DNA from: an uncultured Pseudomonadota bacterium
GTDB lineage: Bacteria; Pseudomonadota; Gammaproteobacteria; Burkholderiales; SG8-39
Direction of reading: 5' to 3'
Assembly (NCBI GenBank): GCA_903834835.1
Contig: CAILKO010000052.1
Location: forward strand, 22,653 to 86,652
DNA: 64,000 nucleotides
Each line of letters starts with the position of its first letter. Within the stretch, counting starts at the first letter, position 1. This document shows, piece after piece, positions 5,681 to 56,546 of the stretch. Position numbers and translations under genes: made by a program. The notes under the pieces are model-generated. The model had not been told where the DNA came from, made no database searches, and saw only the letters and a list, made by a program, of their open reading frames with translations.

Positions 5681-5702
5681 ATAGTAACGTATTTGTTACT
5701 AT
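5681..5702. repeat. 22-bp palindrome, copy 1 (ATAGTAACGTATTTGTTACTAT)
   Basis: An AT-rich inverted repeat with 8-bp arms (ATAGTAAC/GTTACTAT) and a 6-bp centre in an otherwise GC-rich region. It lies in the 63-base gap between the convergent MFS genes A and B, seven bases beyond the stop codon of B. It matches four other copies in the window. There is no T-tract typical of an intrinsic terminator. Confidence 0.9.
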
Positions 5703-5709
5703 CTATCTT

Positions 5710-6888
5710 CTACACCCGCCCCGGCTTCCTCCCCACCCAGGCGCCGGCCATCCCCATCAGCGCCGCACCCGCCACGAACACGCCGGCGAGCCCGATCGCG
5801 GCTGCGAGCGCGCCGAAAGCGGGCGGGGTCAGCACGCGCAGCGCCGCGTTGCCGGTGTTGCGCACCGCGAGGAACTGGCTCGCCGCCGCGGGCGGCAGGC
5901 GCGCATAGGCAAGCGTCGAGGTGATCGGGTTCGCCGCATAGCAGGCGTAGCCATAGATGAAGCTCGAGGCGACCAGCACCGCCGCGCCGCTGCCCGCCAG
6001 CAGCAGCACGAGCGAGACGCCCATCAGCACCAGACATAGGCCGAGCACGCGCTCCTCGCCCAGCCAGATGGAAAGCCGCGGCAGCGTGAGCGGCAGCACG
6101 ATCATGCCGATCGCGGACACCGACACCGTCGCACCGATCACCGAGGCCGAGAGCCCCGCCGCATGACCGAAGAGTGGCAGCAGGAAGGGATAGAGCTCGA
6201 AACCCACGCAGCAGATGCTGCTCATCGCGACCAGCCGCCAGACCTCGCGATGGCGGAGCGTCTCCTTCAGCCCGCCTGCGGCGGACTTCGCGCCCACCGG
6301 CGCGGGCAGGCTCTGCCCCCAGACGAGCAGCAGCACCAGCATCGCGAGCGCGAAGGGCAGGTAGACGAGCATCGCGCTCTGCTGCCCGACCGCGTCGATC
6401 GCGATGCCCGAGGCGAAGGGACCGATGAACGCGGTGAAGGAGGAGATGAAGGCGTAGCGGCTGAAATTGCGCGATAGCGTGGCCGGCGTGGAGAGTAGCC
6501 CGACCACCGTCTGTGTGGGCTGGAAGGCGAGCGTGTTCGCTGCGCCGAAGAGCAGCGCCGCCGCGTACACCGAGGCAATCGTCGGCACAAAGAAGGGCAG
6601 CACCGCCCCGGTAACGCTGCAGCAGGCGCTCGCATAGAGGAGCGGCCGCGCGCCCCAGCGATCGAGCGCCATCGACACCGGTATCGAGATGAAGAGCATC
6701 GGGATCTGGCTGCCGGCGGCGATCACGCCGACCTCGAAGGACCCCGCGCCGAGTTCCAGCGCGAACAGCGACAGCGCCACGCGTGCGCCGATCATCGGCA
6801 CGAAGGCGAGCGTGAGCAGTGCAAGGATGAGCTTCAGGCCGGTGCTCATCGGGCTGCGCGCGGATTCCGGGGAGGCGCGGGTAGCCAT
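5710..6888 (-). CDS. MFS transporter B
   Basis: A 392-residue major facilitator protein with 12 predicted helices. It shows the N-terminal signature RVALSLFALELGAGSFEVG, motif A as ALDRWGARP, the mid-protein signature LFGHAAGLSASVIG followed by GEERVL, and FLAVRNTGNAALRV near helix 10. Last gene of the apparent operon dehydrogenase-dehydrogenase-MFS D-MFS C-MFS B; its first ATG is nine bases after the stop of MFS C. A second in-frame ATG at 6849 (MSTGLKL) lies nearer the first helix and may be the true start; neither has a clear ribosome-binding site. Closest relatives in the window are C and D. Transported compound unknown. Confidence 0.87.
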   Translation of the reverse strand: MATRASPESARSPMSTGLKLILALLTLAFVPMIGARVALSLFALELGAGSFEVGVIAAGSQIPMLFISIPVSMALDRWGARPLLYASACCSVTGAVLPFFVPTIASVYAAALLFGAANTLAFQPTQTVVGLLSTPATLSRNFSRYAFISSFTAFIGPFASGIAIDAVGQQSAMLVYLPFALAMLVLLLVWGQSLPAPVGAKSAAGGLKETLRHREVWRLVAMSSICCVGFELYPFLLPLFGHAAGLSASVIGATVSVSAIGMIVLPLTLPRLSIWLGEERVLGLCLVLMGVSLVLLLAGSGAAVLVASSFIYGYACYAANPITSTLAYARLPPAAASQFLAVRNTGNAALRVLTPPAFGALAAAIGLAGVFVAGAALMGMAGAWVGRKPGRV

Positions 6889-6897
6889 CGGCCGATG

Positions 6898-8073
6898 CTA
6901 GCGGCTCGCCGCGACATCGGGCGGCACGGCGGCGAAACGCCGGCGCGCGCCTACCCACAGGCCCGAGGCGCCCATGATGGCGGCGCTCACCGCGATGCCC
7001 GCGGCGAGGCCGAGCCCGGCGGCGAGCGCGCCGAAGACGGGCGCGATCACCACGCGCAGCGCCGCATTGCCGGTGTTGCGCACCGCGAGAAAGCGCGCCG
7101 CCACCCCGGGCGGCAGATGCGCCCAGGCAAGCGTGGAGGTAAGCGGGTTCGCCGCATAGCAGGCCAGCCCGTAGAGGAAGGAAGCGGCGACCAGCAGCGG
7201 CACATTGCCCGGCGGCAGCAGCATCAGGAAGGCGATGCCCATCACGCCCAGGCAGGCCGCCATCACGCGCTCCTCGCCGCAGGTGCGCGCCAGAAAGGGC
7301 AGCAGCACCGGCAGCAGGATCATGCCGATCGCCGCCACCGACACGGTCGCGCCGATCACCGAGGCCGAGAGCCCGGCCGCATGGCCGTAAAGCGGCACGA
7401 AGAACGGAAAGAGATCCAGCCCGATGCCGGAGAGGCCGCTGATCGCGATCAGCCGCCAGACCTTGCGGTTGCGCAGCGTCTCGGCGAGCCCTCCCCCTCC
7501 CGTGTGTGCGCGCGCCTTCCTCGCGGCCGGCAGCACGCGCCCGACCGCGAGCACCAGCGCGAGCGCGGAGAGTTCGAAGGCGAGGAAGACGAGAAAGCCG
7601 CTGCGGTGGCCGGCCGCATCGATCGCGAGCCCCGAGGCGACGGGACCGAAGAGCGCAGAGAGCGAGGAGAAAAAGGCGTACACGCTGAAATCGCGCGCGA
7701 GCGTCTCCGGCCTGCCGAGCAGGCCGACCAGGGTCTGGCCCGGCTGGAAGGCGAGCACGTTCGAGGTGCCGAACAGAAAGGACGCGATGACGAGCGCGCT
7801 CACGTCCGGCCAGGCCCAGGGCAGCAGCGTGCCCGCGATGCCGCAGAGCGCGCTCGCTGCGAGCGTGACGCGCGGCCCGCAGCGCTCGAGCATCGCGGCC
7901 ACCGGCAGCGAGAAGAGCAGCATCGGAATCTGGCTCGCCGCCCCGATCACGCCGACCTCGAAGGCGCCCGCGCCGAGATCGAGCGCATAGAGCGAGAGCG
8001 CAATCCGCACCCCCATCACCGGGATGAACACGAGGAGCGAGAACACCAGCACGAACACGAACCCGCGCCGCAT
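6898..8073 (-). CDS. MFS transporter C
   Basis: A 391-residue major facilitator protein. It has RIALSLYALDLGAGAFEVG in helix 1, motif A with Glu instead of Asp (AMLERCGPRV), the signature PLYGHAAGLSASVIG followed by GEERVM, and FLAVRNTGNAALRV near helix 10. The reading frame extends upstream into MFS D, but the ATG at 8073 (MRRGFVF) is chosen because it starts a typical first helix and lies two bases after the stop of MFS D. It is almost motif-for-motif identical with B, which suggests recent duplication. Function is inferred only at family level (proton-coupled transport of a small molecule). Confidence 0.87.
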   Translation of the reverse strand: MRRGFVFVLVFSLLVFIPVMGVRIALSLYALDLGAGAFEVGVIGAASQIPMLLFSLPVAAMLERCGPRVTLAASALCGIAGTLLPWAWPDVSALVIASFLFGTSNVLAFQPGQTLVGLLGRPETLARDFSVYAFFSSLSALFGPVASGLAIDAAGHRSGFLVFLAFELSALALVLAVGRVLPAARKARAHTGGGGLAETLRNRKVWRLIAISGLSGIGLDLFPFFVPLYGHAAGLSASVIGATVSVAAIGMILLPVLLPFLARTCGEERVMAACLGVMGIAFLMLLPPGNVPLLVAASFLYGLACYAANPLTSTLAWAHLPPGVAARFLAVRNTGNAALRVVIAPVFGALAAGLGLAAGIAVSAAIMGASGLWVGARRRFAAVPPDVAASR

Positions 8074-8075
8074 GC

Positions 8076-9263
8076 TCAGCCCTCCGCCTCCGCACGACCG
8101 GGGCGCTTTGCCTGCCATCCCGCCACGCCCATCACCGCAGCGAGCAGCACGAACACCGCGGGCAGGCCGAGGAAGCCCGCGAGCGCGCCGAACACCGGGG
8201 AGACCACCACGCGCACCGCGGCGTTGCCGGTATTGCGCAGCGCGAGGAACTGCCCGGCGCGCAGCGGCGGCAGATGCCGGTAGGCGAGCATCGCGGTGAC
8301 CGGGCTGCAGGCGCAGGTGGCAAAGCCGTAGAGAAAGGCCGAGGCGCCGAGCACCCAGACGTTCGTTCCCGCCGCGAGCATCAGGAAGGAGAGCCCGACG
8401 AAACCGAGGCAGAGCGCCATCACGCGGTGCTCACCCAGCTTGCGCACCGACCAGGCGAGCACCAGCGGCAGCAGCATCGCCCCGATCGAGATCACCGCCA
8501 CCAGCGCACCGATCACCGAGGCCGAATAGCCCGCCGCATGGCCGTGCAGCGGCAGGAAGAGCGGATAGAGCTCGAGCGCGAGCGCGACGCTGTTGCTCAT
8601 CGCGATGAAGCCCCAGACGCGCCGGTCGCGCAGCGTCTCGCGCAGTGCCCCTACGCCTGCGGCCTCCTTCGTCGGCGCGGGGCCGGGCAGCATGCGCCCG
8701 CCGAAGGCAAGCATCGCGAGCGCGGCGAGTTCCAGCGGCAGCATCACCAGCATGCCGCGCGCGGGGCCGAAGGCATCGATCGCGAGCCCGCCCGCGAAGG
8801 GCCCGATCACGCCCGCGATCGCGCCGACAAAGGAATACACGCTGAAGTTGCGCGCGAGCGTGCTCTGGTCGCTGAAGGCGCCGATGAGCTTCTGCAAGGG
8901 CTGCGAGCCGAGCACGTTCGAGAGACCGAAGAAGATGGACGAGGCCAGCACCGCCGGCATCACCGGAAATGCGAAGGGCAGCAGCACCGCGACCAGGCCG
9001 CAGCATGCCGAGGCCCAGAGCACCGAGCGCGCACCGTAGCGGTCCATCGCGAGCGCCACCGGCACCGACAGGAACAGCATCGGCAGCTGGGTGGAGGCCG
9101 ACACGACGCCCACCTCGAAGGCGCCCGCACCGAGCGAGAGCGCGAACAGCGACAGCATCACGCGCGCGCCGATCAGCGAGCTGAACACGCACATCATCCA
9201 GATGTTGGTGTAGCGCAGGCCGGCGCGCTGGGTGTCGGCTGACATCGTCGGGGGCTGTGACAT
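8076..9263 (-). CDS. MFS transporter D
   Basis: A 395-residue major facilitator protein and first MFS gene of the three-member tandem. Helix 1 carries RVMLSLFALSLGAGAFEVG, loop 2-3 carries AMDRYGARS, and the central signature is PLHGHAAGYSASVIG with GEHRVM, a slightly diverged version of that in B and C. Helix 10 region reads FLALRNTGNAAVRV. It starts 58 bases after the stop of the smaller acyl-CoA dehydrogenase on the same strand, so co-transcription with beta-oxidation-type genes is likely. An alternative ATG at 9245 (MSADTQ) exists. Confidence 0.87.
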   Translation of the reverse strand: MSQPPTMSADTQRAGLRYTNIWMMCVFSSLIGARVMLSLFALSLGAGAFEVGVVSASTQLPMLFLSVPVALAMDRYGARSVLWASACCGLVAVLLPFAFPVMPAVLASSIFFGLSNVLGSQPLQKLIGAFSDQSTLARNFSVYSFVGAIAGVIGPFAGGLAIDAFGPARGMLVMLPLELAALAMLAFGGRMLPGPAPTKEAAGVGALRETLRDRRVWGFIAMSNSVALALELYPLFLPLHGHAAGYSASVIGALVAVISIGAMLLPLVLAWSVRKLGEHRVMALCLGFVGLSFLMLAAGTNVWVLGASAFLYGFATCACSPVTAMLAYRHLPPLRAGQFLALRNTGNAAVRVVVSPVFGALAGFLGLPAVFVLLAAVMGVAGWQAKRPGRAEAEG

Positions 9264-12999: not shown

Positions 13000-14139
13000 C
13001 TAGCCGCGCGGCTTGCGTGCCTGCCAGACACTCGCCACCCCCATCGAGGCGGCCGCGATCCAGAACACCAGCGCGAGTCCGCCCACGGCCGCGATGCCGC
13101 CGAATACGGGCGGCGCGAGCACGCGCGTGACGCCGTTGCCGAGGTTGCGCAGCCCGAGAAAGTGATTCGCCTTCACCTGCGAGAGCATGCCGAAGGCCAT
13201 CATCGCGGTGACGGGGATGCTGGAGGCGATGCCCACGCCGTAGAGAAAGGACAGGAACCCGAGCACCCAGGGATTCACGGTGAAGGGCGTTAGCGCGAAC
13301 ACGATGCCGCAGAGCGCGAGGCAGGCCGCCATCACGCGCTCCTCGCCCGCACGGCGCACGAGCTGCGGCAGCACCAGCGGCAGCGACAGGCTGCCGAAGG
13401 CCGCTGCGGAGATGATCGCGCCGATGGTGGAGGCGGAGAGCCCCGCCGCATGGCCGTAGAGCGGCAGGAAGAAGGGATAGAGCTCGAAGGCCATCGCCGA
13501 CACGCTGCTTACCGCGATCAGCTTCCAGACCACCGGGTCGGCCAGCGTCTCGCGCATCTTCGGCGTGTGCTCAGGCGCCTTGTCGCGCACCGCGAGCGAT
13601 TTGCCGCGCAGCACGAGAAGCGCGATCGCCACCAGCGGCAGCGGCAGGAACACGAGCAGCGCCGGCACGTGACCGATCGCGTCGATCGACACCCCGGCGA
13701 TGAAGGGCCCGAACAGGATGGTCGTGCCGGCGACGAAAGCATAGGTGCTGAAGTTGCGCGCGCGGTCCTCGGGCCGGCTGAAGGCGCCCACCAGCTTCTG
13801 CGTCGGCTGGAAGGTGAGCACGTTCCACATGCCGAAGAGGAGGGCCGAGCACATCACCACGGGGAGCGAGGTGAAGAACACGGGCAGCACGAGACTGGTC
13901 GCGCCGCAGATCGCGCCGGTGATCAGCAGCGCGCGCACACCCCAGCGCTCGGACGCGGCGATGACCGGTATGGAAAACAGCACCAGCGCCACCTGCATGC
14001 CGCCGGTGATGATGCCCACTTCGAGCGAACCCGCGCCGAGCTCGAGCGCAAGCAGCGTATAGATGACGCGCGCACCGGTGACGGTGGTGTAAGTGAGGAA
14101 ATTGAAAACGTTGATCAGTACGATCCTGCGGTCCGCCAT
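13000..14139 (-). CDS. MFS transporter F
   Basis: A 379-residue, 12-helix major facilitator protein. Helix 1 carries RVIYTLLALELGAGSLEVG, motif A is degenerate with Glu (ASERWGVRA), and the centre has PLYGHAAGLSASTIG followed by GEERVM. The helix 10 region reads FLGLRNLGNGVTRV, placing it with B, C, D and G. It follows MFS G on the same strand with a 51-base gap, so F and G may be co-transcribed. It is convergent with MFS E with an 18-base gap. Substrate unknown. Confidence 0.86.
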   Translation of the reverse strand: MADRRIVLINVFNFLTYTTVTGARVIYTLLALELGAGSLEVGIITGGMQVALVLFSIPVIAASERWGVRALLITGAICGATSLVLPVFFTSLPVVMCSALLFGMWNVLTFQPTQKLVGAFSRPEDRARNFSTYAFVAGTTILFGPFIAGVSIDAIGHVPALLVFLPLPLVAIALLVLRGKSLAVRDKAPEHTPKMRETLADPVVWKLIAVSSVSAMAFELYPFFLPLYGHAAGLSASTIGAIISAAAFGSLSLPLVLPQLVRRAGEERVMAACLALCGIVFALTPFTVNPWVLGFLSFLYGVGIASSIPVTAMMAFGMLSQVKANHFLGLRNLGNGVTRVLAPPVFGGIAAVGGLALVFWIAAASMGVASVWQARKPRG

Positions 14140-14190
14140 CGGGACATCCTTTCGTTGCGCCGCGCGAGCGCAGCATCCATCACGCGGGCC

Positions 14191-15324
14191 TCAGCGCAGC
14201 ATTCTGCGCGCGAGCGCGCCGCCCGCGACCATCAGCGCCGCGCTCAGCAGGTAAACCGGAAAGAGCCCGATCGCCGCGGCAAGCGCGCCGAACACCGGCG
14301 GGCCGGCGCTGCGCATGCCCGCATTGGCCGAATTGCGCAGCCCGAGAAACTGGTTGGCGCGCGCCTCCGAGAGCCGCGCATAGGCGAGCAGCACGCTCAG
14401 GGGGTTGCCCGCGGCGCAGGCGAAGCCGTAGAGGAAGGAGGCTGCCGAGAGCACCCATGGGTTCGTGCTGAAGGGCACGATCGCGAAGGCAACGCCGATC
14501 AGCATCATGCCGATGGAAAGCACGCCCGCCTCGCCGATCCGTCGCACGAGGCGCGTGAGCACGAGGGGCAGCGCGAGCTGACCAAGCGCCGAAGCGGAGA
14601 CGATGCTGCCGATCACCGAGGCGGAGAGCCCCGCCGCGTGACCGTAGAGCGGCATGAAGAACGGGAAGAGTTCCATCGAGGCCGAGATCATGCTCGTCAC
14701 CACGATGAGCCGGCGCACCGCCGGATCGCGCAGCGATTCGGCGAGCGCGGGCGCGGGTTCCCCCCGGGGCGCCTGGCGGCGCAGCAGCGCCGCGCCGAGC
14801 ACGGGCAACAGCACGCAGGCCGCGGCGAAGGGCAGCAGCGCGAGACCCGCGGCCGCCGCGCCCAGCCAGTCCACCGCCACGCCGCCGATCAGCGGTCCCA
14901 CAAGCAGGCTGCTCGCGGCGAAGAACGCGTAGACGGACATGCTGCGCGCGCGCCTGTCGATGCCTGAGAGTTCGGCGACGAGCTTCTGCGTGGGCTGGAA
15001 GGCGAGCACGTTCCACAGACCGAACAACAGCGCGCCGGCGTAGAGCACAGGCAGGCTCGGCCACAGCCAGGGCAGCAGAAAGCCTGCGACCCCGAGCACG
15101 CCACCCGCGATCAGGAGCGGCCGGCTGCCCCAGCGCTCGAGCGCCGTGGCGACCGGAATCGACAGGAGCAGCATCGGAAACTGCATGCCGGCGATGATGA
15201 GCCCTACATCGAGCGCATCCGCGCCGAGGTCGAGCGCGAGCAGCGAGTACACCACGCGCGAGCCGACGATCGGGACATAGGCGAGCGTCATCCACGCCAC
15301 GACGAAGCGGATCTCGCGGTTCAT
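14191..15324 (-). CDS. MFS transporter G
   Basis: A 377-residue major facilitator protein. The ORF track starts further upstream, but the ATG at 15324 (MNREIRF) directly precedes helix 1 and is preferred. Signatures are RVVYSLLALDLGADALDVG, loop 2-3 ALERWGSRP with Glu in place of Asp, PLYGHAAGLSASVIG, a diverged GEAGVL instead of GEERVL, and FLGLRNSANAGMRS. It precedes MFS F. The region upstream, to the TRAP terminator at 15500, is about 140 bases without a gene and should contain its promoter. Confidence 0.85.
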   Translation of the reverse strand: MNREIRFVVAWMTLAYVPIVGSRVVYSLLALDLGADALDVGLIIAGMQFPMLLLSIPVATALERWGSRPLLIAGGVLGVAGFLLPWLWPSLPVLYAGALLFGLWNVLAFQPTQKLVAELSGIDRRARSMSVYAFFAASSLLVGPLIGGVAVDWLGAAAAGLALLPFAAACVLLPVLGAALLRRQAPRGEPAPALAESLRDPAVRRLIVVTSMISASMELFPFFMPLYGHAAGLSASVIGSIVSASALGQLALPLVLTRLVRRIGEAGVLSIGMMLIGVAFAIVPFSTNPWVLSAASFLYGFACAAGNPLSVLLAYARLSEARANQFLGLRNSANAGMRSAGPPVFGALAAAIGLFPVYLLSAALMVAGGALARRMLR

Positions 15325-15528: not shown

Positions 15529-16545
15529 TTACTTGCGGTACTTGCGCGCGGTGGCGACGATCGCTTCGTAGTCTTCCTTCAGCTTCGGATCGGCCGCGAA
15601 CATCGGCGGCAGCACCGAGGTGGCTTCCGCGATATAGCGCTTCGTCTCCGCGGGCGACATGCGGATGATCTCGCCGCCATTCGAGCGCCAGAGCGCGCGC
15701 ACGCGCTCGAGATCGGGCAATGCGCCGGTGGTGTAGACCTCCTCGGCCCTGCGCGCCTCAGCCCTCACCATGGCGTCGAGCTCCGGCCCGTAGGAGGCGA
15801 GCGTCTTCGGGTTGGTGATCACGGCGGATACGAGGAAGCTCCCCGGCAGTTCGGTCACCGGCTTGGCGATGTCCCAGTACTTGAACGCGGTCATGATGCT
15901 GAAGCCGGACATCATGCCGTCCACGCCCTTGTTCTGCATCGCGGGCAGCACTTCGTTCAGCGGCATCGTGAGCGGCGAGGCACCGAGCTTCTTGAACGGC
16001 TCGATATGCATCGGCGCACCGCCCGGTGCGCGCAGGCGCTTGCCCTTCAAATCATCCACCGTACGGATCGCCTGATGCGAGAGCAGCATCAGCGGACCGT
16101 TCACGAACGTGAACAGCGCCTCCAGATTCTTCGCCTGGCCCATGGTGGAGATGCGCTTGCGCAGATCCGGGTCGCGCAGCGTGGCGAATGCATGCGGCAC
16201 GTCATCGAACAGACCCGGCGCGTCGAACACGACGAAGCGCGGATCCAGCCCGACCAGAAAGCCCATGGCCGGCTGGTCGAGATCGACCGTGCCGAGGGTC
16301 ACGCCCTCGACCGTGCGCGGCAGCGGTCCGAGCTGTCCCGCCGGGAAGATGTCGACCTTGATGCGGCCGTTCGAGCGCGCCTCGATGCCGGCCTTGAACA
16401 CCTTGAACCATTCGTGGTTGATGTCGTTCAGGCTGACGGTCGAGGCCTTCATGGTGATGACCTTCTGCTGGGCCTGCGCGATGCCGGCACCGAAGGCGAG
16501 CGCGACGGCGAGCGCGCCGGCGGCAATTCGTTTCACTCTGGTCAT
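15529..16545 (-). CDS. TRAP transporter substrate-binding protein DctP, copy 1
   Basis: A 338-residue periplasmic binding protein of the DctP family, which captures an organic acid and delivers it to the DctQM membrane complex. It begins with a Sec signal peptide (basic MTRVKR, hydrophobic core, AQA cleavage region near residue 25) and contains the ligand-loop region GKRLRAPGGAPMHIEPF, where family members use an Arg to hold the substrate carboxylate. It is the last of three dctP paralogues. It has diverged most in the signal peptide, which is not the MKFNL type of the other two. Its own terminator follows directly. Confidence 0.9.
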   Translation of the reverse strand: MTRVKRIAAGALAVALAFGAGIAQAQQKVITMKASTVSLNDINHEWFKVFKAGIEARSNGRIKVDIFPAGQLGPLPRTVEGVTLGTVDLDQPAMGFLVGLDPRFVVFDAPGLFDDVPHAFATLRDPDLRKRISTMGQAKNLEALFTFVNGPLMLLSHQAIRTVDDLKGKRLRAPGGAPMHIEPFKKLGASPLTMPLNEVLPAMQNKGVDGMMSGFSIMTAFKYWDIAKPVTELPGSFLVSAVITNPKTLASYGPELDAMVRAEARRAEEVYTTGALPDLERVRALWRSNGGEIIRMSPAETKRYIAEATSVLPPMFAADPKLKEDYEAIVATARKYRK

Positions 16546-16597
16546 GCTCCCTCCTCAGGGATTTTGTCGAGCGCGTAAGTTACCCGATGTACCGCAC

Positions 16598-16629
16598 AAA
16601 AAAAAGCCGCGCCCGAGGGCGCGGCTCTT
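16598..16629 (-). terminator. Intrinsic terminator between dctP copies 2 and 1
   Basis: Minus-strand reading gives a GC-rich hairpin AGCCGCGCCC-TCG-GGCGCGGCTTTTTTTT. It lies 18 bases beyond the stop of dctP copy 2. Transcription of copy 1 would need read-through or its own promoter in the roughly 50 bases that follow. Confidence 0.9.
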
Positions 16630-16646
16630 CATACGCCCGCAAGGGC

Positions 16647-17666
16647 CTACTTGCGGTACTTCTTCGCGGTGGCCACGAAGGACTCGTAGTCGTCCCTAAG
16701 CTGCGGATCGGCCGCCATCAGCGCGGGCAGCACCGAGGAGGCCTCGGTCACATAGCGCCTCGATTCCGTGGCGGACATACGGATGATCTCGCCGCCGTTC
16801 GTGCGCCAGACGTTGCGCACCTTCTCCAGTTCGGCCAGGCCGGTGTTGGTGTAGATGTCCTCGGCCTTGCGCAGCTCGGCGCGCACCATGCCCTCGAGCT
16901 CGGGCCCGTAGGAGGCGAGCGTCTTCGGGTTGGTGATCACCGCGCCCACCAGGAAGCTGCCCGGGAGCTCCGTCACCGTCTTGGCGATGTCCCAGTACTT
17001 GAACGCGGTCATGATGCTGAAGCCCGACATCAGGCCGTCGATACCCTTGTTCTGCATCGCAGGCATGGCTTCATTCAGCGGCATGGTGAGCGGCAGGGCG
17101 CCCAGCTTCTTGAACGGCTCGATATGCATCGGCGCGCCGCCCGGGGCGCGCAGGCGCTTGCCCTTCAGGTCGTCGACCGTACGGATTGCCTGGTGCGAGA
17201 GCAGCATCAGCGGGCCGTTCACGAGGATGTAGGTCGCCTCCAGGTTCTTGGAGGCGCCCATGGTCGAGATGCGCTTGCGCAGCGTCTCGTCCTTCAGGCT
17301 CGCGACCGCGTGCGGCTGGTCGTCGAACATGCCCGGCGCATCGAACACGACGAAGCGCTTGTCCAGGCCGACGAGGAAGCCGATCGCGGGCTGGTCGAGA
17401 TCGATGGTGCCGAGCGTCACGCCCTCGATGGTGCGCGGCAGCGGCCCCAGCTGGCTGGCCGGGAAGATGTCGACCTTGATGCGGCCGTTCGATTTCGCCT
17501 CGATGCCTGCCTTGAAGAGCTTGAAGTACTCGTGGTTGATGTCATTCAGGCCGACCGACGAGGCCTTCATCGTGATGACCTTCTGCTGCGCCTGGGCGGC
17601 GGTGAAACCGGCCGCGAGCGCCAGCGCGAGCACACCGCGCGCTGCCGTTTTCAGGTTGAATTTCAT
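16647..17666 (-). CDS. TRAP transporter substrate-binding protein DctP, copy 2
   Basis: A 339-residue DctP-family periplasmic protein. The start at 17666 gives the signal peptide MKFNLKTAARGVLALALAAG, cleaved after AQAQ, and an AGGAG-like site precedes it. The mature part closely follows copies 1 and 3 (shared QLGPLPRTIEGVTLGTIDLDQ and GKRLRAPGGAPMHIEPF). Differences concentrate in short stretches near residues 195-215 and 300, so the copies may differ in ligand. It has its own downstream terminator, as do the other copies. Confidence 0.9.
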   Translation of the reverse strand: MKFNLKTAARGVLALALAAGFTAAQAQQKVITMKASSVGLNDINHEYFKLFKAGIEAKSNGRIKVDIFPASQLGPLPRTIEGVTLGTIDLDQPAIGFLVGLDKRFVVFDAPGMFDDQPHAVASLKDETLRKRISTMGASKNLEATYILVNGPLMLLSHQAIRTVDDLKGKRLRAPGGAPMHIEPFKKLGALPLTMPLNEAMPAMQNKGIDGLMSGFSIMTAFKYWDIAKTVTELPGSFLVGAVITNPKTLASYGPELEGMVRAELRKAEDIYTNTGLAELEKVRNVWRTNGGEIIRMSATESRRYVTEASSVLPALMAADPQLRDDYESFVATAKKYRK

Positions 17667-17792
17667 GGGATCTCCTGGTTGATGAATGCTGCTTGTCGGC
17701 TGCTTGCCGGCCGCTTGTCCGCCTTCTGCCGACCGTGGCGCACGCGATGTTACTTGATGCGCCGCCCTGTGGGTACCGGACTGATACCGGTG

Positions 17793-17822
17793 AAAAAAAA
17801 CCGCGCCTGAGGCGCGGCTTTT
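17793..17822 (-). terminator. Intrinsic terminator between dctP copies 3 and 2
   Basis: Minus-strand reading gives AAGCCGCGCC-TCA-GGCGCGG followed by eight T. It lies 22 bases past the stop of dctP copy 3. Confidence 0.88.
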
Positions 17823-17844
17823 CCCCGCCGGATCGGGCCCTGCT

Positions 17845-18867
17845 CTATTTCCGCTGCCTGCGGGCCGCGGCAACGATCACGTCGTAGTCTTCCTTCAGCC
17901 TCGGGTCGGCCGCGAGCATCGCAGGCAGCACCGAGGTCGCCTCGCCGACGTAACGCTTCTGCTCGGCGGGCGCGAGGCGGATCACTTCGCCGCCGTTCTG
18001 GCGCCAGAGGCTGTAGTGCTTCTCGAGATCGGTCACGCCGTAGGTGGTGTAGACCGTCTCCAGACGGCGGACTTCGCCGCGCACCAGGGCTTCCAGCTCC
18101 GGACCGAAGGACTTGAAGGTGTTGCGGTTGATGATGTTCGCGCCGACCAGGTAGGACCCCGGCACTTCGGTGACGGGCTTCGCGATATCCCAGTACTTGA
18201 ACGCGGTGATGATGTTGAAGCCGGACATCATGCCGTCCAGACCCTTGTTCTGCATCGCGGGCAGGACTTCATTCAGCGGCATGGTGAGCGGCGAGGCGCC
18301 GAGCTTGCGCAGCGGCTCGATGTGCATCGGCGCGCCGCCCGGCGCGCGCAGGCGCTTGCCCTTGAAGTCATCCACGGTGCGCACCGCGTTGTGCGAGAGC
18401 AGCATCAGCGGACCGCTGAAGGTGACGAAGATTGCCTCGAAGTTCTTGGCCGCGCCCATGGTCTCGATGCGCTTGCGCACCTCGGGATCGCGCAGGGTCG
18501 CCCAGCCGTGCTCCACGCTGTCGAAGAGGCCGGGCGCATCGAACACGATGAAGCGCGGATCCAGACCGACGAGGAAGCCGATCGCAGGCTGGTCCATGTC
18601 GATGGTGCCGAGCGTGACGCCCTCGATGGTGCGCGGCAGCGGCCCGAGCTGGGCGGCCGGGAAGATGTCGGCCTTGATGCGGCCGTTCGATTTCGATTCC
18701 AGCCCGGCCTTCAGCTGGCGGTAGAACTCGTGGTTGGTGTCGTTAAGCGCCGGCGTGGAGAACTTCAGCGTGAACACCTTCTGCTGCGCCTGGATGCCGG
18801 TGGAAAATCCCGCCGCCAGGGCCAGGGCGAGAACACCGCGCGCGGCGGTCCGCAGGTTGAATTTCAT
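17845..18867 (-). CDS. TRAP transporter substrate-binding protein DctP, copy 3
   Basis: A 340-residue DctP-family protein and first of the three dctP genes in the transcript. The ATG at 18867 is chosen over the upstream in-frame Met because it starts the signal peptide MKFNLRTAARGVLALALAAG, nearly identical to that of copy 2. The binding-domain motif GKRLRAPGGAPMHIEPLRKL differs slightly from the other copies. It follows dctM by 78 bases. With only one DctQM pair present, all three binding proteins probably compete for the same membrane complex. Confidence 0.9.
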   Translation of the reverse strand: MKFNLRTAARGVLALALAAGFSTGIQAQQKVFTLKFSTPALNDTNHEFYRQLKAGLESKSNGRIKADIFPAAQLGPLPRTIEGVTLGTIDMDQPAIGFLVGLDPRFIVFDAPGLFDSVEHGWATLRDPEVRKRIETMGAAKNFEAIFVTFSGPLMLLSHNAVRTVDDFKGKRLRAPGGAPMHIEPLRKLGASPLTMPLNEVLPAMQNKGLDGMMSGFNIITAFKYWDIAKPVTEVPGSYLVGANIINRNTFKSFGPELEALVRGEVRRLETVYTTYGVTDLEKHYSLWRQNGGEVIRLAPAEQKRYVGEATSVLPAMLAADPRLKEDYDVIVAAARRQRK

Positions 18868-20976: not shown

Positions 20977-22107
20977 CTAGCCGGACTTCCAGCGCCAGCC
21001 GAGCGCAGCCATCAGCGCGCCGATGCCGAGCAGCACCGGCGCGATCCCCAGGGCGCTCGCGGCCGGGCCGAGCAGCGCGGGCGCTGCAACCTTGGTCAGG
21101 CTGCTGGCGAGGAGCCTCAGGCCCATGGCCGCGCCTTCCGCGCCCTTCTGCGCGCGCCGGAAGGTGAGCATCGTGGTGAGCGGCTGGCCGCCTCCGATAC
21201 CCAGGCCGTAGAGCACCGACACGGCGAGGATCGTCCAGAAGCCCTGGAAGGCAGGCAGCAGCGCGAAGCTGGCCCCGGTCAGCAGCAGGGACGCGGCGAG
21301 CAGTCGCGCCTCGCCGTAACGCGCCACCAGTCGCGGCAGCACGAAGCAGACCCCGATCGCGGAAACCGAGGCCACCGATACCAGGATGCCGATCTCGGAG
21401 GGCGAGAAGCCGAGCCCGTGGCCGTAGATCGGCAGGAAGAAACCGTACATGTCGAGTCCGACCTGCAGCACGCCGGTCGCCAGCAGCACGCCGAGCATGC
21501 GCGGCACGGCGAGGGTCGCGCGCAGCCCCGGACGCGGGCCCTCGGTGCGCGGAAGCTCCGGGACGAATCGTTTCCAGAGCCCGAGGAGGCAAAGCGTGGC
21601 GAGCGCGGCAATGCCGAAGAGCAGGAATGCGCCCGCGTAGCCCGCGCCTTCGATGCCATAGCCCGCGAGCAACGGCCCGAGAAATCCGGTGAGCCAGGCG
21701 AGTATGTTGTAGAGGCTGAAATTGCGCGCCACATCGGTCGGCTCGCTCAGCATCCCGACCAGGCTCTGTGTGGGCGGCAACACGCAGAGCGTCCAGGTGC
21801 CGCTCAGGAGCGCCGCGAGATAGAGCATGCCGATGCCTGGAAAGAACCAGGGCAGCAGCATGCTCAGCCCGCCTGCGATCGCGCCGAGCGCCATCACGCG
21901 CCGGTAACCGAATCGCGCCTGGATCACGCCGACGTTGTAGGAGGCGAGCGTGGGCATATGGTTCACCGCCGAGATCAGGCCCGCGTCGAGCGCGCTGCCT
22001 CCCAGTTCGAGCACGTAGAGCGGAAACGCCACGCGCGAAGCCATGATGCCGATAAATGGAACGAACAACAGGCTGCTGATGTAGAGCACGCGCGGCGAGA
22101 TGCGCAT
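20977..22107 (-). CDS. MFS transporter H
   Basis: A 376-residue major facilitator protein. The ATG at 22107 (MRISPRVLY) is chosen because GGAGGA lies seven bases upstream; the ORF track starts almost 400 bases earlier. Signatures: RVAFPLYVLELGGSALDAG in helix 1, a loop 2-3 that has lost the acidic residue (GVIQARFGYRR), PIYGHGLGFSPSEIG in the centre, GEARLL, and MGLRLLASSLTKV near helix 10. It is the most isolated and most diverged member of the signature group. It is divergent from the extradiol dioxygenase; a run of nine C lies in its leader. Confidence 0.86.
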   Translation of the reverse strand: MRISPRVLYISSLLFVPFIGIMASRVAFPLYVLELGGSALDAGLISAVNHMPTLASYNVGVIQARFGYRRVMALGAIAGGLSMLLPWFFPGIGMLYLAALLSGTWTLCVLPPTQSLVGMLSEPTDVARNFSLYNILAWLTGFLGPLLAGYGIEGAGYAGAFLLFGIAALATLCLLGLWKRFVPELPRTEGPRPGLRATLAVPRMLGVLLATGVLQVGLDMYGFFLPIYGHGLGFSPSEIGILVSVASVSAIGVCFVLPRLVARYGEARLLAASLLLTGASFALLPAFQGFWTILAVSVLYGLGIGGGQPLTTMLTFRRAQKGAEGAAMGLRLLASSLTKVAAPALLGPAASALGIAPVLLGIGALMAALGWRWKSG

Positions 22108-22131: not shown

Positions 22132-22232
22132 TCGGGTCGCCAGGGTGCCACGGCGACAGTCGCGCACGGCGGCCGGGAGTGTCGCACGACCGCCGGCCGG
22201 CACGGGGACGGTTTCACGGCCGACCGGAATTG

Positions 22233-22254
22233 ATAGTAACGTATATGTTACTAT
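22233..22254. repeat. 22-bp palindrome, copy 2 (ATAGTAACGTATATGTTACTAT)
   Basis: A near-perfect inverted repeat identical to the five-copy consensus, 126 bases upstream of MFS H and about 250 bases upstream of the dioxygenase start. This is the only copy not close to a stop codon. Confidence 0.92.
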
Positions 22255-22311
22255 TGTCGCAGAATATCCGCCATTTCCTTCCTCCGCTTCCGGCCGTCTC
22301 CTTGCCGACCT

Positions 22312-22353
22312 TTGATCTGCATCAAGCCCCTGTGGCCGGCCGGCCAGTACAAA
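22312..22353 (+). promoter_or_regulatory. FNR/ANR-like promoter for the extradiol dioxygenase
   Basis: TTGATCTGCATCAA (22312-22325) is a perfect match to the FNR/ANR half-sites TTGAT-N4-ATCAA. A -10-like TACAAA lies at 22348-22353. If transcription starts near 22360, the box is centred at about -41.5, the classic class II activator position. No good -35 is present, which fits activator dependence. The regulator itself is not in the window. Confidence 0.6.
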
Positions 22354-22501
22354 GGAACCCACGGCGCACCGATGCCTGCTTCCGCGAGCGGAAGGGGGAA
22401 AGGCAGACAGCCGGAGCAGGACGGGAGCAGGGTTGCTCGGCCGATGGAAACGGCGAGACCCCGCGCACTGGCAAGGCAACGCAGGCACTCTGGAGAACAC
22501 T

Positions 22502-23428
22502 ATGCATCGACACCTGAAGCTCGGCTACCTCGCACTCAACGTGACGAATATGGAAGCCTCGAAGAAGTTCTACGAATCCATGGTCGGCCTGAACCTCACG
22601 GAGATCGGTGCGAACGGCGAGCATTTCTTCCGCTGCAGCGACGACCATCACAACATCGTGCTCTACAAGAAGGACCAGGCCAGCCTGAAGCGCATCGGCT
22701 GGGAGCTGGAGAGCGAGTCCGACATGAACCAGCTCTACAGCGCGCTCGAGCGCAGCAAGGTCAAGGTCCGCGAGGTGGATGCCGCGGAGCGCGCCTTCCT
22801 GCACCAGGGCCGCACCATCCGCTTCGAGGATCCGTTCAGCGGCGCGGTGCACGAGTACTACACCGACCAGCGGCGCCTTGGCGGCACGCCCTTCGAGCCG
22901 ACGGTCGCCAAGATCCAGAAGCTCGGCCACGTCGTGCTGAAAACCCCGCGCTACGAAGACGCGCTCGCCTTCTACATGGACGTGCTCAACTTCCGTTCCT
23001 CGGATTTCGTCGAAGGCATGATCACCTTCATGCGCGCCTTCCCGATCCCCTACCACCACTCCTTCGGCCTCGCGAAAAGCGACAAGGGCGCGATGCACCA
23101 CCTGAACTTCATGGTGTCCGAGGTGGACGACATCGGCAAGGGGATGTGGCGCTACAAGAAGAATGACGTCGTCGTGGTGCGCGGACCGGGTCGTCACCCC
23201 CCCTCGGGCGCGATGTTCCTGTACGCGCTCGACCCGGACGGCCACACGGTGGAATACAGCTTCGGCATGGAAGAGTTCCCGGAAGTGAGCCCGCGCAAGC
23301 CGCGCCAGCTTCCGCCGCTTCCGGAGTCGATCGATTTCTGGGGTGCTCCGACAGACCCGCGCATGGGCGCCACCGGCAACATCGAAAAGGCCGAGGCTGC
23401 CCCGGCGAAGAAGCTGCAGCCCGCCTGA
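22502..23428 (+). CDS. Extradiol (vicinal oxygen chelate family) ring-cleavage dioxygenase
   Basis: A 308-residue protein with two tandem VOC/glyoxalase-type domains, as in type I extradiol dioxygenases that open catechols with oxygen. The C-terminal catalytic domain supplies a plausible 2-His-1-Glu iron triad: His143 (LGHVVL), His199 or His200 (MHHLNF) and Glu251 (HTVEYS). The N-terminal domain begins at residue 5 (LKLGYLALNV). The start at 22502 has GGAGAAC ahead of it; the longer ORF-track frame is rejected. Length is typical of catechol 2,3-dioxygenases. The aromatic substrate is unknown. An intrinsic terminator lies about 90 bases downstream, so the gene appears monocistronic with an FNR-like promoter. 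Confidence 0.85.
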   Translation: MHRHLKLGYLALNVTNMEASKKFYESMVGLNLTEIGANGEHFFRCSDDHHNIVLYKKDQASLKRIGWELESESDMNQLYSALERSKVKVREVDAAERAFLHQGRTIRFEDPFSGAVHEYYTDQRRLGGTPFEPTVAKIQKLGHVVLKTPRYEDALAFYMDVLNFRSSDFVEGMITFMRAFPIPYHHSFGLAKSDKGAMHHLNFMVSEVDDIGKGMWRYKKNDVVVVRGPGRHPPSGAMFLYALDPDGHTVEYSFGMEEFPEVSPRKPRQLPPLPESIDFWGAPTDPRMGATGNIEKAEAAPAKKLQPA

Positions 23429-23520
23429 CCGGCTCAGGGCGGCGGGGGCGCGAGCCCTCACCGCCCGCCGTTGTGCCGCGCTACCTCCCCCTCCGGCGCG
23501 GCACGACGGCACCCTACAGA

Positions 23521-23544
23521 GGCCCGCCCCGGCGCGGGCCTTTT
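23521..23544 (+). terminator. Intrinsic terminator after the extradiol dioxygenase
   Basis: GGCCCGC-CCCGGC-GCGGGCC followed by TTTT on the plus strand. It separates the dioxygenase from the RNase D-like gene. Confidence 0.8.
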
Positions 23545-23599
23545 CATTTGCGCTCTTCCGGCCCGCGCGCGCAGCTGCAGCCTCTATACTCGCGGCCCC

Positions 23600-28562: not shown

Positions 28563-29543
28563 ATGCACACCATTAAAGCGGTCTACCACCCGAACCCGAG
28601 ACTTCTCCCCATGACCGAAGGCGCGGTCGGTGTCGAGGGCTATCGCATCGATCTCAGTTTCGGCGGCGCGGCCGAGATGCATGGCCGCCATCTGAAGGAA
28701 AACGCCTTCGACGTGTTCGAGTTCTCGATCTCCAACCTGTTCATCACCAAGGACATGCCCGAGCGCGCGCACCTGCGCTGGCAGGCGATCCCCATCCACC
28801 TGATGCGCTGCGACTTCTTCTACGACCTGCACGTGCACCAGGGCTCGGGCATCCGCAGCTTCGCCGATCTGAAGGGCAAGACGGTCGGGATCCCCGACTT
28901 CCAGATGACCGCCGGGGTGTGGCTGCGCATCATCCTGCGCAAGCTCTACGGCATCCAGGCGCAGGATATTTCGTGGGTGAACGGCCGTCCGGCGAGCCAG
29001 ACCCATGGCGAGGGTGTCGCGCAGGATCTCGCGCCCGGCATCCGGCTGCGCCGCCTGCAGGAGCACGAGCGCCTCGACGACCTGCTGCACCGGGGCGAGA
29101 TAGACGCCGCGTTCGCGGATGCGATCAGCTGCCGCCTCACGACGGGCAACGGCGTCGAGCGCGTGCCGCTCGCGGTGACGCGCCAGATGTGCGCCGAGCT
29201 CTACGCGAAGACGGGTCTGCGCCCCGTGAACCACGTGCTGCTTATCCAGCAGGCGCTCGCCGATGCCCACCCCGCGCTGCCGATGCAGCTCTTTGACGCG
29301 ATGGAGAAGTCCAAGCAGATCGCCTACCGGCGCATGCGCGAGAGCGCCGATACCTTCCTCATGTTCCCCGAGCTCTACCTCGCCGACAACGAAGCCGCGT
29401 TCGGCGCCGATCCCTATCCTTCCGGTCTGAAGGCGAACCGCCCGGTCATCGAGGCGATCCGCGAGGAACTGCTGCTCGAACGCCTGATCCGCAATCCGGT
29501 GGGCATCGACGGCCTGTTCCACCCGTCCACGCTGGGAACCTGA
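28563..29543 (+). CDS. 4,5-dihydroxyphthalate decarboxylase-like protein (periplasmic-binding-protein fold)
   Basis: A 326-residue cytoplasmic protein without a signal peptide but with the type 2 periplasmic-binding fold. GKTVGIPDFQMTAGVWLRII near residue 105 and the late PYPSGLKANRPVIEA are close to the pattern of 4,5-dihydroxyphthalate decarboxylases. The absence of any export signal argues against a transporter role. Many relatives of this family are misannotated as ABC binding proteins, and the true substrate here may be another aromatic acid. It lies downstream of the SDR on the same strand. Confidence 0.65.
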   Translation: MHTIKAVYHPNPRLLPMTEGAVGVEGYRIDLSFGGAAEMHGRHLKENAFDVFEFSISNLFITKDMPERAHLRWQAIPIHLMRCDFFYDLHVHQGSGIRSFADLKGKTVGIPDFQMTAGVWLRIILRKLYGIQAQDISWVNGRPASQTHGEGVAQDLAPGIRLRRLQEHERLDDLLHRGEIDAAFADAISCRLTTGNGVERVPLAVTRQMCAELYAKTGLRPVNHVLLIQQALADAHPALPMQLFDAMEKSKQIAYRRMRESADTFLMFPELYLADNEAAFGADPYPSGLKANRPVIEAIREELLLERLIRNPVGIDGLFHPSTLGT

Positions 29544-47756: not shown

Positions 47757-47778
47757 TTAGTAACATTTACGTTACCAT
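47757..47778. repeat. 22-bp palindrome, copy 4 (TTAGTAACATTTACGTTACCAT)
   Basis: The reverse complement, ATGGTAACGTAAATGTTACTAA, fits the consensus with one arm mismatch on each side. It lies between convergent genes and its last base is the first base of the MFS I stop triplet (TCA at 47778). Confidence 0.85.
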
Positions 47779-48959
47779 CAAGTGCTGCGACCGCCCCCGG
47801 TGCCCCCTCGCTCGGGTCTGGGTGCCGGCGCGGGCGCATCCCTGAGCACCGCGAGCGCCGAGATCCACAGCAGCGCGCCGCAGGTCAGGAACACGGTGAA
47901 CAGACCGGCTGCGACCGACAGTGCCCCGTAGCCGGACGGCCCGGCGATGCGCACGATCGCATTGCCGGTCATGCGCAGACCCATCGACTGCCCGGCCGCG
48001 CCCTTGCCGGAGCGCTTGTACATGATGAGCGTCGTGACCGGCGCGCCGCTGGAGACGCCGATGCCGTAGAGCATCGCCGCGCAGACCAGCAGGAGGGGCG
48101 CATCCATGAACGGCATGACCATGAAGGCGAGTCCGGTCATGCCCATCGAGAACGCGAGCAGGCGCTCCTCGCCGAAGCGCGGCACCGTATGCGGCAGCGT
48201 GAAACGCATCGCGAACGAAGTCGCGGACCCGGAGGCCATGATCCAGCCGATCACAGCGGGCTCCAGCCCCAGCGCGTGGCCGTAGAGCGGCATGCAGAAG
48301 GGATAGAAATCGACCGCCATCTGCACCACCGCATTCATCCACATGATGCGCCAGAAGCCCGGGTCGCGCAGCGTATCCCCGAGCCGGGTCTGCGCGGCGC
48401 GCGCGCCCTGGCCGGGCGGCAGCCGGCTGCCGATCGCGAGCACCGACGCGGCCACGAGCACCGCCACCCCCGCGAGCGCGAGACAGGCGCGCTCGTGCCC
48501 GAGCAGCTGGATGGCATAGCCGCCGACGAGCGGCCCGGTCATCGCGGTGGCCGAGAGCACCAGCGCGAGGTTGCCGTAGGTGCGCGTCAGTTCGTCCGGA
48601 TGGCTGAGCTGCCCGACCACCACCTGGGAGAGCACCATGATCACCACGGAGAACACACCGAGCAGCGCCGCCCCGACAAAAAGGCTGGCGACGCCGGGCA
48701 GGGCATAGGGCAGGGCAAGACCGGCCGCGCCGGTGAGCGCCGCGCCGGCCATGAGCCAGCGTGCCCCGTAGCGATCGCAGAGCATGCCGACCGGCACCGA
48801 CAGGAAGAGCGAGGGGAGCTGGATCATCGCCGCAAGGAGTCCGGTACGGAACTCGCCCAGACCTGCATCCAGCGCATAGAGCGTCAGCACCATGCGCGCC
48901 GCGAAGGTCGCGGCGATCGCGAGGTACAGGATGCCGAATACGACGCGCCTGAGCGGCAT
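47778..48959 (-). CDS. MFS transporter I
   Basis: A 393-residue major facilitator protein. The start at 48959 (MPLRRVVFG) is taken instead of the much longer ORF-track frame, which runs back through the glutaredoxin gene. Signatures are RMVLTLYALDAGLGEFRTG, motif A as GMLCDRYGARW, PLYGHALGLEPAVIG with an atypical EPA in place of SAS, GEERLL, and MGLRMTGNAIVRI near helix 10, the last grouping it with J, K, L and M. It begins 17 bases after the glutaredoxin-like gene on the same strand. Confidence 0.86.
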   Translation of the reverse strand: MPLRRVVFGILYLAIAATFAARMVLTLYALDAGLGEFRTGLLAAMIQLPSLFLSVPVGMLCDRYGARWLMAGAALTGAAGLALPYALPGVASLFVGAALLGVFSVVIMVLSQVVVGQLSHPDELTRTYGNLALVLSATAMTGPLVGGYAIQLLGHERACLALAGVAVLVAASVLAIGSRLPPGQGARAAQTRLGDTLRDPGFWRIMWMNAVVQMAVDFYPFCMPLYGHALGLEPAVIGWIMASGSATSFAMRFTLPHTVPRFGEERLLAFSMGMTGLAFMVMPFMDAPLLLVCAAMLYGIGVSSGAPVTTLIMYKRSGKGAAGQSMGLRMTGNAIVRIAGPSGYGALSVAAGLFTVFLTCGALLWISALAVLRDAPAPAPRPERGGTGGGRST

Positions 48960-48976
48960 GCCGAGCACCGCGCGCC

Positions 48977-54228: not shown

Positions 54229-55380
54229 TCATTCGCGTCGCCCGATGCCCGGCGCGGCACGATCCCCGCGCATGATCGCCCAGCCCGAAGCACCCACCAG
54301 CACGGCGGTGAAGAGCGCGACGCCGAAGAGGTTCGTCATGCCGACCAGCGCGCCGAAGAGCGGTGGCACGCAGACCCGCGTCGCGCCGTTGGCCGTCATC
54401 CGCAGGCCGATGGCCGCCCCGGCGCGCTCCCGCGCCACGCCCCTGTAGACCAGCATGAGCACGAGCGGCCCCCCGAAGGCCATGCCGACGCCGAGCAGCA
54501 GGGCCACCGCGACCATCGCGCCCGCGCTCGAGGAAAACGGCAGCAGCGCGAAGGCCGCCGCGGCCACATAGAGCGCCGAGGAGAGCATGCGCTCCTCGCC
54601 GTAGCGCTTCACGATCCGCGGCAGGATGATGCGCACGGTGAGCGAGACCACGCTGGAACTCGAGATCGCGAAGCCGATCGCCGAGGCCGACATGCCGAGC
54701 GCGTGCCCGTGCAGCGTGACGTAGAAGGGAAAGAGTTCCATCGCAAGCTGCACCGCGCTGCTGATCAGCATGATCCGCACGAGGCTGCGGTCCAGAGGCG
54801 CCGCAGCCGTATCGCGCGCCGTGCCGCGCTGCGGCGCTCCGGGCAACAGGCGCAGGCCGGCCACCAGCAGGATGCCGATCAGCAGCAGCACAGGCAGCAG
54901 CGCGCCCACCGCCTGTGCATGGCCGAGATGCTCGATCGCATAGCCCGCCATGATCGGCCCGCTGATGCCCGATAGCGAATTCATCATCGCCTGGTTGCTG
55001 AAGTTTCGCGCCATCGATTCCCGGGTGCTCAGCAGTCCGACCAGACGCTGGATCAGCACCACGAGGAATGCCGACCAGATCCCGCCCAGCGCAGAGGCGA
55101 CGTAGAACACCGGTATCGTGCTGTGCGCGGCGGCGAGCGCAATGCCCAGCGCACCGCAGGCGAAGCCCGCGAGGAACAGTACCCGCGCGCTGAACCGGTC
55201 CGCCATCAGACCGATCAAGAAAGAAAAGAGCAGTGCCGGCGCCTGATTGGCCGCGGCGAGCGTACCCACCTCGAATTCGGTCGCGCCGAATTCGAGCGCG
55301 GTGAGCGAAAAGATCGTGCGCGAGCCCATCACCACCGTGAATGACAGGAACTGGATCAGCAGGATGTAGGGAATCTGCAT
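54229..55380 (-). CDS. MFS transporter J
   Basis: A 383-residue major facilitator protein and the last of four tandem MFS genes. The ATG at 55380 (MQIPYILL) overlaps the stop of MFS K by one base (TGATG). Signatures are RTIFSLTALEFGATEFEVG, motif A as GLMADRFSARV, TLHGHALGMSASAIG, GEERML, and IGLRMTANGATRV near helix 10. It converges with livF. Overlaps throughout the four-gene unit indicate one transcript that begins upstream of MFS M. Confidence 0.87.
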   Translation of the reverse strand: MQIPYILLIQFLSFTVVMGSRTIFSLTALEFGATEFEVGTLAAANQAPALLFSFLIGLMADRFSARVLFLAGFACGALGIALAAAHSTIPVFYVASALGGIWSAFLVVLIQRLVGLLSTRESMARNFSNQAMMNSLSGISGPIMAGYAIEHLGHAQAVGALLPVLLLIGILLVAGLRLLPGAPQRGTARDTAAAPLDRSLVRIMLISSAVQLAMELFPFYVTLHGHALGMSASAIGFAISSSSVVSLTVRIILPRIVKRYGEERMLSSALYVAAAAFALLPFSSSAGAMVAVALLLGVGMAFGGPLVLMLVYRGVARERAGAAIGLRMTANGATRVCVPPLFGALVGMTNLFGVALFTAVLVGASGWAIMRGDRAAPGIGRRE

Positions 55381-56546
55381 CAGTCCGCAACGCCTTCCGC
55401 CCTCGCCCGGTGCTTCTGGCGCGAGCCGATGAACAGCGCGACCGAGCCGAGTATCACCGCCGTCGTCACGAACACAACGGGCAGACCGGCCAGCGCGGCA
55501 AGCCCGCCCATGGCGGGCGGCGCCGAGACGCGCAGCAGTCCGTTGCCGGTTGCCCGCAGCCCCATCACCTCGCCTTCGCGCCCGGGCGGCGAATTGCGAT
55601 ACATCAGCATCGAGGTAAGCGGATGCCCGACTGCGATGCCCGCCCCGAACACCAGCGCCACGGCGACCAGCGCAGCGGGACTCGAAAACAGCGGCACGAT
55701 CGCCATCGCGCCGCCCGCGACCGCAAGACTCCAGGCGAGCAGGGGTTCCTCGCCCAGCCTCGTGATCAACGCCTGCAGCCAGATGCGCACCGCGAACGAC
55801 GCGCCATAGGCCGCGCCCACGACGATGCCGACGAAGGATGCGCTCAGCCCCACCGAATGACCGTAGATCGGCACGAAGAACGGGAACATGTCGCCGGCAA
55901 GCTGCACCGAACCGCCCAGCAGCAGCACCCACCAGAGCCTGCGGTCGGTCAGCAGGGAGCGCAGATCCCCGCGCGCCACCTGCTTGCGCTTCGCGCCCGG
56001 CAGTCCGCGCCCGAACAGCGCAAGCATCAGCGAGAAGCTGGCGAGCGGCACGAGCACCAGGAAGCCGAGTTCATGGCCGACCGCGTCGATCGCGAACCCT
56101 GCAAGCGGCCCGCCGACCAGAAAGCTGCAGGAGGACACGAGCGAAAAATTGCTGAAGGCCTGGGCCAGCGTTTCCTTCGTGCTGAACGCGCCGATCAGAC
56201 TCTGGGTCAGGATGAGGTTCACGACCGCCCAGATCCCGCACAGTGCCATGCCGAGAAACAGCATCGGCACCGAGGGCAGGAAATACGGGACGAGCAATCC
56301 CAGCACGCCGAGCACGGCGCTGCCGACGAGCGGCCAGCGCGCGCCATAGCGATCGCCCAGCATGCCCGCGGGGATCGCCACCACGAGCGAGAAGAACTGA
56401 TAGGTTGCCGCGAGCAGGCCGACCTGGAAGGCGCTCGCACCGAGCGAGAGCGCAAACAGCGAAAACATGATCCGCAGCCCGACGAGCGTGGTGAGACAGC
56501 TCGCCATGATGGAGAGCGTGTAGACCATGCCGAAGCGGCGCGACAT
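55380..56546 (-). CDS. MFS transporter K
   Basis: A 388-residue major facilitator protein. Two adjacent Met codons (56549, 56546) could start it; 56546 is used because it gives the same TGATG overlap with the previous stop as seen at 55380. Signatures: RIMFSLFALSLGASAFQVG, motif A as GMLGDRYGARW, PIYGHSVGLSASFVG, GEEPLL and MGLRATGNGLLRV, with SPPGREGEVMG in the preceding loop. That loop motif is also found in MFS A and E, linking the two subfamilies. Confidence 0.87.
   Translation of the reverse strand: MSRRFGMVYTLSIMASCLTTLVGLRIMFSLFALSLGASAFQVGLLAATYQFFSLVVAIPAGMLGDRYGARWPLVGSAVLGVLGLLVPYFLPSVPMLFLGMALCGIWAVVNLILTQSLIGAFSTKETLAQAFSNFSLVSSCSFLVGGPLAGFAIDAVGHELGFLVLVPLASFSLMLALFGRGLPGAKRKQVARGDLRSLLTDRRLWWVLLLGGSVQLAGDMFPFFVPIYGHSVGLSASFVGIVVGAAYGASFAVRIWLQALITRLGEEPLLAWSLAVAGGAMAIVPLFSSPAALVAVALVFGAGIAVGHPLTSMLMYRNSPPGREGEVMGLRATGNGLLRVSAPPAMGGLAALAGLPVVFVTTAVILGSVALFIGSRQKHRARAEGVAD

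Follow-up and report, generated by a model that had tools for sequence, protein, structure and literature searches.

A perfect FNR-type box upstream of a gene for a type I extradiol ring-cleavage dioxygenase is, with a probability that we put at roughly 0.7, an FNR site in a class II promoter through which one of five dioxygenase isozymes would be expressed under micro-oxic conditions. The box was found in a window of 64,000 nucleotides, by which we mean the whole stretch of DNA that was analyzed. The genome to which the window belongs comprises 3.37 Mb in 74 contigs and is 89% complete, and statements made below about the whole genome rest on pattern searches and on sequence stretches. The features of the region, in window coordinates, are as follows.

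20977-22107, minus strand: divergent MFS transporter gene (Pfam)
22205-22282, no strand assigned: one copy of a dispersed palindromic element of about 80 bp, outside the FNR promoter
22312-22325, plus strand: FNR-type box TTGATCTGCATCAA (pattern match; identical 14-mer upstream of the ortholog in genome G028)
22348-22353, plus strand: TACAAA as candidate -10 hexamer, separated from the box by 22 nt (the ortholog has TAAAAA, equally spaced)
22360, plus strand: predicted transcription start, approximate, from class II spacing
22502-23428, plus strand: two-domain VOC (type I) extradiol ring-cleavage dioxygenase, 308 amino acids (Pfam, alignment, and residues)
23518-23546, plus strand: possible terminator (read by eye), formed by the GC-rich inverted repeat gcccgccccggcgcgggc and then cttttcattt

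The preliminary description of this DNA had reported a perfect TTGAT-N4-ATCAA box, and this was borne out, since TTGATCTGCATCAA is a perfect inverted repeat of that form with its center at 22318.5, 183.5 bp from the ATG at 22502. It was the only TTGATN4ATCAA site in the window, where 0.01 perfect sites would be expected from shuffled sequence, and a scan of the window with one mismatch allowed returned no other site. The center of TACAAA lies 32.0 bp from the center of the box, which is the class II arrangement, and with a start predicted near 22360 the box would be located at about -41.5. At 15 to 19 nt from the -10 hexamer, a -35 hexamer was absent in both the window genome and G028, and the best candidate at this spacing matched at 2 of 6 positions. 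The lack of a -35 hexamer is expected of an activator-dependent promoter, and its absence from both genomes favors activation over repression. The -10 hexamers of the window gene and the ortholog lack the T with which -10 elements usually end, and the spacing between box and -10 hexamer at the dioxygenase gene is 1 nt longer than at most other candidate sites of the same genome.

The product of the downstream gene contains two VOC domains with Glyoxalase Pfam matches and aligned over its full length with solved extradiol dioxygenases. The metal ligands of the 2-His-1-carboxylate type (H143, H200, and E251) and the catalytic residues H186 and Y241 are all intact. The oxygen-using ring-cleavage dioxygenase of the preliminary description is therefore, as judged from domains, alignment, and residues, a predicted type I extradiol dioxygenase. 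Its score reached none of the NCBIfam equivalog cutoffs for BphC, HpaD, C23O, and HsaC, the best being 127 bits against a cutoff of 366. The possible terminator that follows the gene suggests a single-gene transcript; the hairpin at 23518-23546 was not listed by the terminator scan. In G028, a Rieske oxygenase gene follows the dioxygenase ortholog, and the same 4.8-kb contig carries a relative of the window gene at 28563-29543. These two neighbors of the G028 ortholog fit an aromatic or related catabolic role, and the product of 28563-29543 is a possible pathway partner of the dioxygenase. This product is a 326-amino-acid protein without a Pfam match, and its relative on the G028 contig lies at L073 3772-4752.

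On the other side of the box, inspection revealed no -10 hexamer at class II distance on the strand of the divergent MFS gene. The possibility that the box drives this gene was rejected for that reason, and the MFS gene is probably not the FNR target. Many similar MFS genes, in runs, were noted in the window (5710-9245, 13000-15324, 47778-48968, 54229-58863, and 20977-22107); the genes at 20977-22107 and 14191-15324 were assigned by Pfam and the others were judged from N-terminal sequence. Two of the dioxygenase paralogs described below, C29 and C35, also appear from the sequence to adjoin divergent MFS genes. Elsewhere in the window, three tandem genes for TRAP-type periplasmic binding proteins (DctP) stand beside one DctQ/DctM pair (15529-18867).

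The nearest ortholog of the dioxygenase, 80% identical, is encoded by G028, which represents a different genus of the same family. Upstream of its start codon the identical 14-mer is present, and TAAAAA follows at the identical 32.0-bp distance, such that both genomes have TAnAAA at this position. The 14-mer was the longest word common to the two upstream regions, and none of 300 pairs of dinucleotide-shuffled upstream sequences shared a word longer than 12. The upstream regions have otherwise diverged, and third codon positions of the two genes are 73% identical. In a phylogenetic tree, the window dioxygenase and the G028 ortholog were sisters (support, 99/98), and the paralogs C43 and C29 fell outside this pair. 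None of the four paralogs in the window genome (C43, C29, C35, and C57) has a box within 500 bp. Since the two boxed genes are sisters and the paralogs lie outside and are boxless, the box belongs to the ortholog line of the window gene and G028. Its conservation rests on a single ortholog, the sole one of more than 60% identity from another genome in a search of 98 family genomes, 399 order genomes, a genome contig scan, and plasmids. Homologs of at most 57% identity had no box in those of their upstream regions that could be read.

Among the proteins encoded by the window genome is a canonical [4Fe-4S]-type FNR (L017, C57:117041), with a C-x2-C-x5-C cluster, a fourth cysteine, and an ETVSR recognition helix; this protein scored above the NCBIfam Fnr cutoff. 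Three perfect TTGATN4ATCAA sites were found in the whole genome, namely, the one at the dioxygenase gene, a second immediately before ccoN, and a third before the gene for an aa3-type oxidase subunit II. When the pattern was relaxed to TTGAYN4RTCAA, 18 sites were found genome-wide versus 2 for the reversed control pattern. The relaxed sites precede ccoN and genes for universal stress proteins (Usp), Hsp20, a formate/nitrite transporter (FNT), and a nitroreductase, and many of them have a TAnnnT hexamer 21 to 22 nt downstream. The genome thus has what is, from these patterns, predicted to be an ordinary FNR regulon, and the putative dioxygenase promoter has the same layout. Given the sequence of the box, the conserved spacing, the missing -35 hexamer, the canonical FNR, and the similarly built sites across the genome, the class II FNR-type promoter of the preliminary description is well supported as a prediction.

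A match by chance, or a box that is bound and has no role in dioxygenase expression, was considered because each of the related genomes searched contains a small number of perfect TTGATN4ATCAA sites, including some within coding DNA. However, the window genome has only three such sites, and a chance match is ruled out by the identical 14-mer and spacing retained in the closest ortholog amid diverged upstream DNA, so that we regard this explanation as a whole as very improbable. It is somewhat less improbable, though still unlikely, that in this lineage a similar-looking palindrome is bound by a regulator outside the FNR group, such as one that controls aromatic pathways and belongs to a different family. 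FNR was not found in G028 (71% complete), the genome of the only close ortholog, in which the site is conserved, or in its congener G003 (90% complete), and yet both genomes carry TTGATN4ATCAA sites, some of them before genes. One site in G003 (L127 1501-1514) precedes a gene that reads as a gentisate 1,2-dioxygenase and that adjoins a gene reading as an IclR-type regulator. Against this, another box in G003 (L262 1454-1467) precedes what is, from its sequence, a putative bacteriohemerythrin gene, which would be a plausible FNR target linked to oxygen; the exact FNR consensus and its class II spacing to the -10 hexamer are kept in the window genome and in G028; and betaproteobacterial aromatic regulators with published motifs, as given in one paper, recognize other consensus sequences. 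Moreover, the window genome does encode FNR, and the genomes of G028 and G003 are incomplete; in these, either the missing portion contains fnr or the box is read by another regulator.

Of the alternatives, the one that we rate highest, although we still consider it unlikely, is that the box is read mainly by a second FNR-type protein of the window genome. This paralog (L018, C66:90422) has the same IETVSR recognition helix as FNR and no N-terminal cysteine cluster, and it matched the NCBIfam Fnr model only below the cutoff; it could sense a signal other than O2 at an Fe-S cluster, such as NO, heme, or redox state, in the manner of DNR, which in denitrifiers binds the same TTGATN4ATCAA box (PMC1274295). 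The preliminary description had likewise offered a Dnr/NO-type regulator as an alternative. In the window genome, at its 89% completeness, the COX1-family proteins were limited to an aa3-type CoxA and CcoN of the cbb3 oxidase, and NorB was not among them. Because an NO reductase of the COX1/NorB family, and with it a denitrification context, was not found, the Dnr/NO reading is disfavored. In addition, a canonical FNR is present, and both the box and the promoter layout are common to the genome's candidate FNR targets. Control by the [4Fe-4S]-type FNR is accordingly the reading that we prefer.

The intergenic region that contains the FNR-type box also contains the palindromic element, whose core ATAGTAACGTATATGTTACTAT occupies 22233-22254. 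Other copies in the window have 18-bp cores starting at 5683, 37024, 47759, and 59902. The motif ATAGTAAC-N6-GTTACTAT occurred as 105 exact 22-bp copies in the genome and as 0 copies in 298 relatives; with up to 1 mismatch allowed, the 18-bp core AGTAAC-N6-GTTACT had 176 copies genome-wide versus 2 for the control. When 62 copies were compared, the core was nearly invariant and the outer flanks paired more often than expected, with an outer inverted repeat near GGAAGAAAAT...ATTTTCTTCC. Among the copies checked, 22 of 23 were in predicted intergenic DNA, with any orientation of the flanking genes. The core had been a candidate operator for a regulator of the MFS or dioxygenase gene; this was rejected on account of its dispersal, its 176 near-exact copies, and the intergenic placement of 22 of the 23 copies checked. 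An Rfam search of the window gave no match for the element, which looks lineage restricted and REP- or MITE-like. Several copies were located about 140 to 175 bp from contig ends, and the exact 22-bp core also occurred in viral contigs, once in each of 77 stretches.

From the promoter layout and the encoded regulators, we infer FNR binding, activation, the transcription start, the response to oxygen, and the role of the isozyme. According to this model, FNR, a [4Fe-4S] oxygen sensor, would dimerize when oxygen is low, bind the box centered near -41.5, contact RNA polymerase beside the -10 hexamer, and activate the single dioxygenase gene. Since only one of the five paralogous dioxygenase genes bears a box, that gene probably encodes the micro-oxic isozyme. 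More enzyme would be made while its cosubstrate, oxygen, is scarce and not absent, which is the logic of the FNR-controlled high-affinity cbb3 oxidase, and micro-oxic ring cleavage may reasonably be inferred. A more tentative extension, which we hold to be possible and short of probable, is that the isozymes are tiered by oxygen, with the four boxless paralogs serving under oxic conditions and the fifth under micro-oxic conditions through direct FNR control, such that oxygen would select the dioxygenase.

The cbb3 oxidase consumes O2 and is a classic FNR target. A second precedent is hemF, the gene for an O2-dependent coproporphyrinogen III oxidase, the expression of which was reduced in an anr mutant of Pseudomonas aeruginosa (PMC6588701). 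The predicted activation of an O2-consuming enzyme by an oxygen-limitation regulator, which the preliminary description had called notable, stands as a prediction, but given these precedents its singularity was overstated. In its TTGATN4ATCAA box, its distance of about 22 nt to the -10 hexamer, and its lack of a -35 hexamer, the dioxygenase promoter resembles class II FNR/ANR promoters such as those of the cbb3 oxidase and the ANR core regulon (PMC6588701). The resemblance extends to the genome, which encodes FNR and in which ccoN is also preceded by a box; it differs in the predicted target, a ring-cleavage dioxygenase and not a respiratory, heme, or stress gene. With the ANR-activated hemF of Pseudomonas, the gene shares an O2-consuming product and positive control by an FNR-type regulator, predicted in the present case, whereas hemF serves essential heme biosynthesis and the dioxygenase would serve optional catabolism.

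Regulators of aromatic metabolism offer a further comparison. AcpR is an FNR homologue. AadR of Rhodopseudomonas palustris and AcpR of Azoarcus are FNR-type or oxygen-dependent activators of aromatic pathways (PMC4424350), but their targets are genes of the anaerobic benzoyl coenzyme A (benzoyl-CoA) pathway, which needs no O2, whereas the target predicted here uses O2. A link to hypoxic degradation has been drawn for the catechol 2,3-dioxygenases of subfamily I.2.C (Kukor and Olsen 1996, as cited in PMC5972620). These are likewise extradiol dioxygenases, for which function at low O2 has been proposed; the link was made there from enzyme and habitat data and is made here via a promoter. In the portion of the full-text literature covered, no report of an FNR- or ANR-activated extradiol or other ring-cleavage dioxygenase was found.

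With FNR-type control, the dioxygenase gene would be a new addition to the targets of a known switch, and its product would join the O2-consuming enzymes that are turned on by a regulator of oxygen limitation. Direct FNR control, conserved at the promoter of such a gene, would provide a genetic handle on the low-oxygen switching of ring cleavage. The conserved low-oxygen switch suggests that the cell makes more of the enzyme, or a dedicated version of it, when oxygen is scarce.
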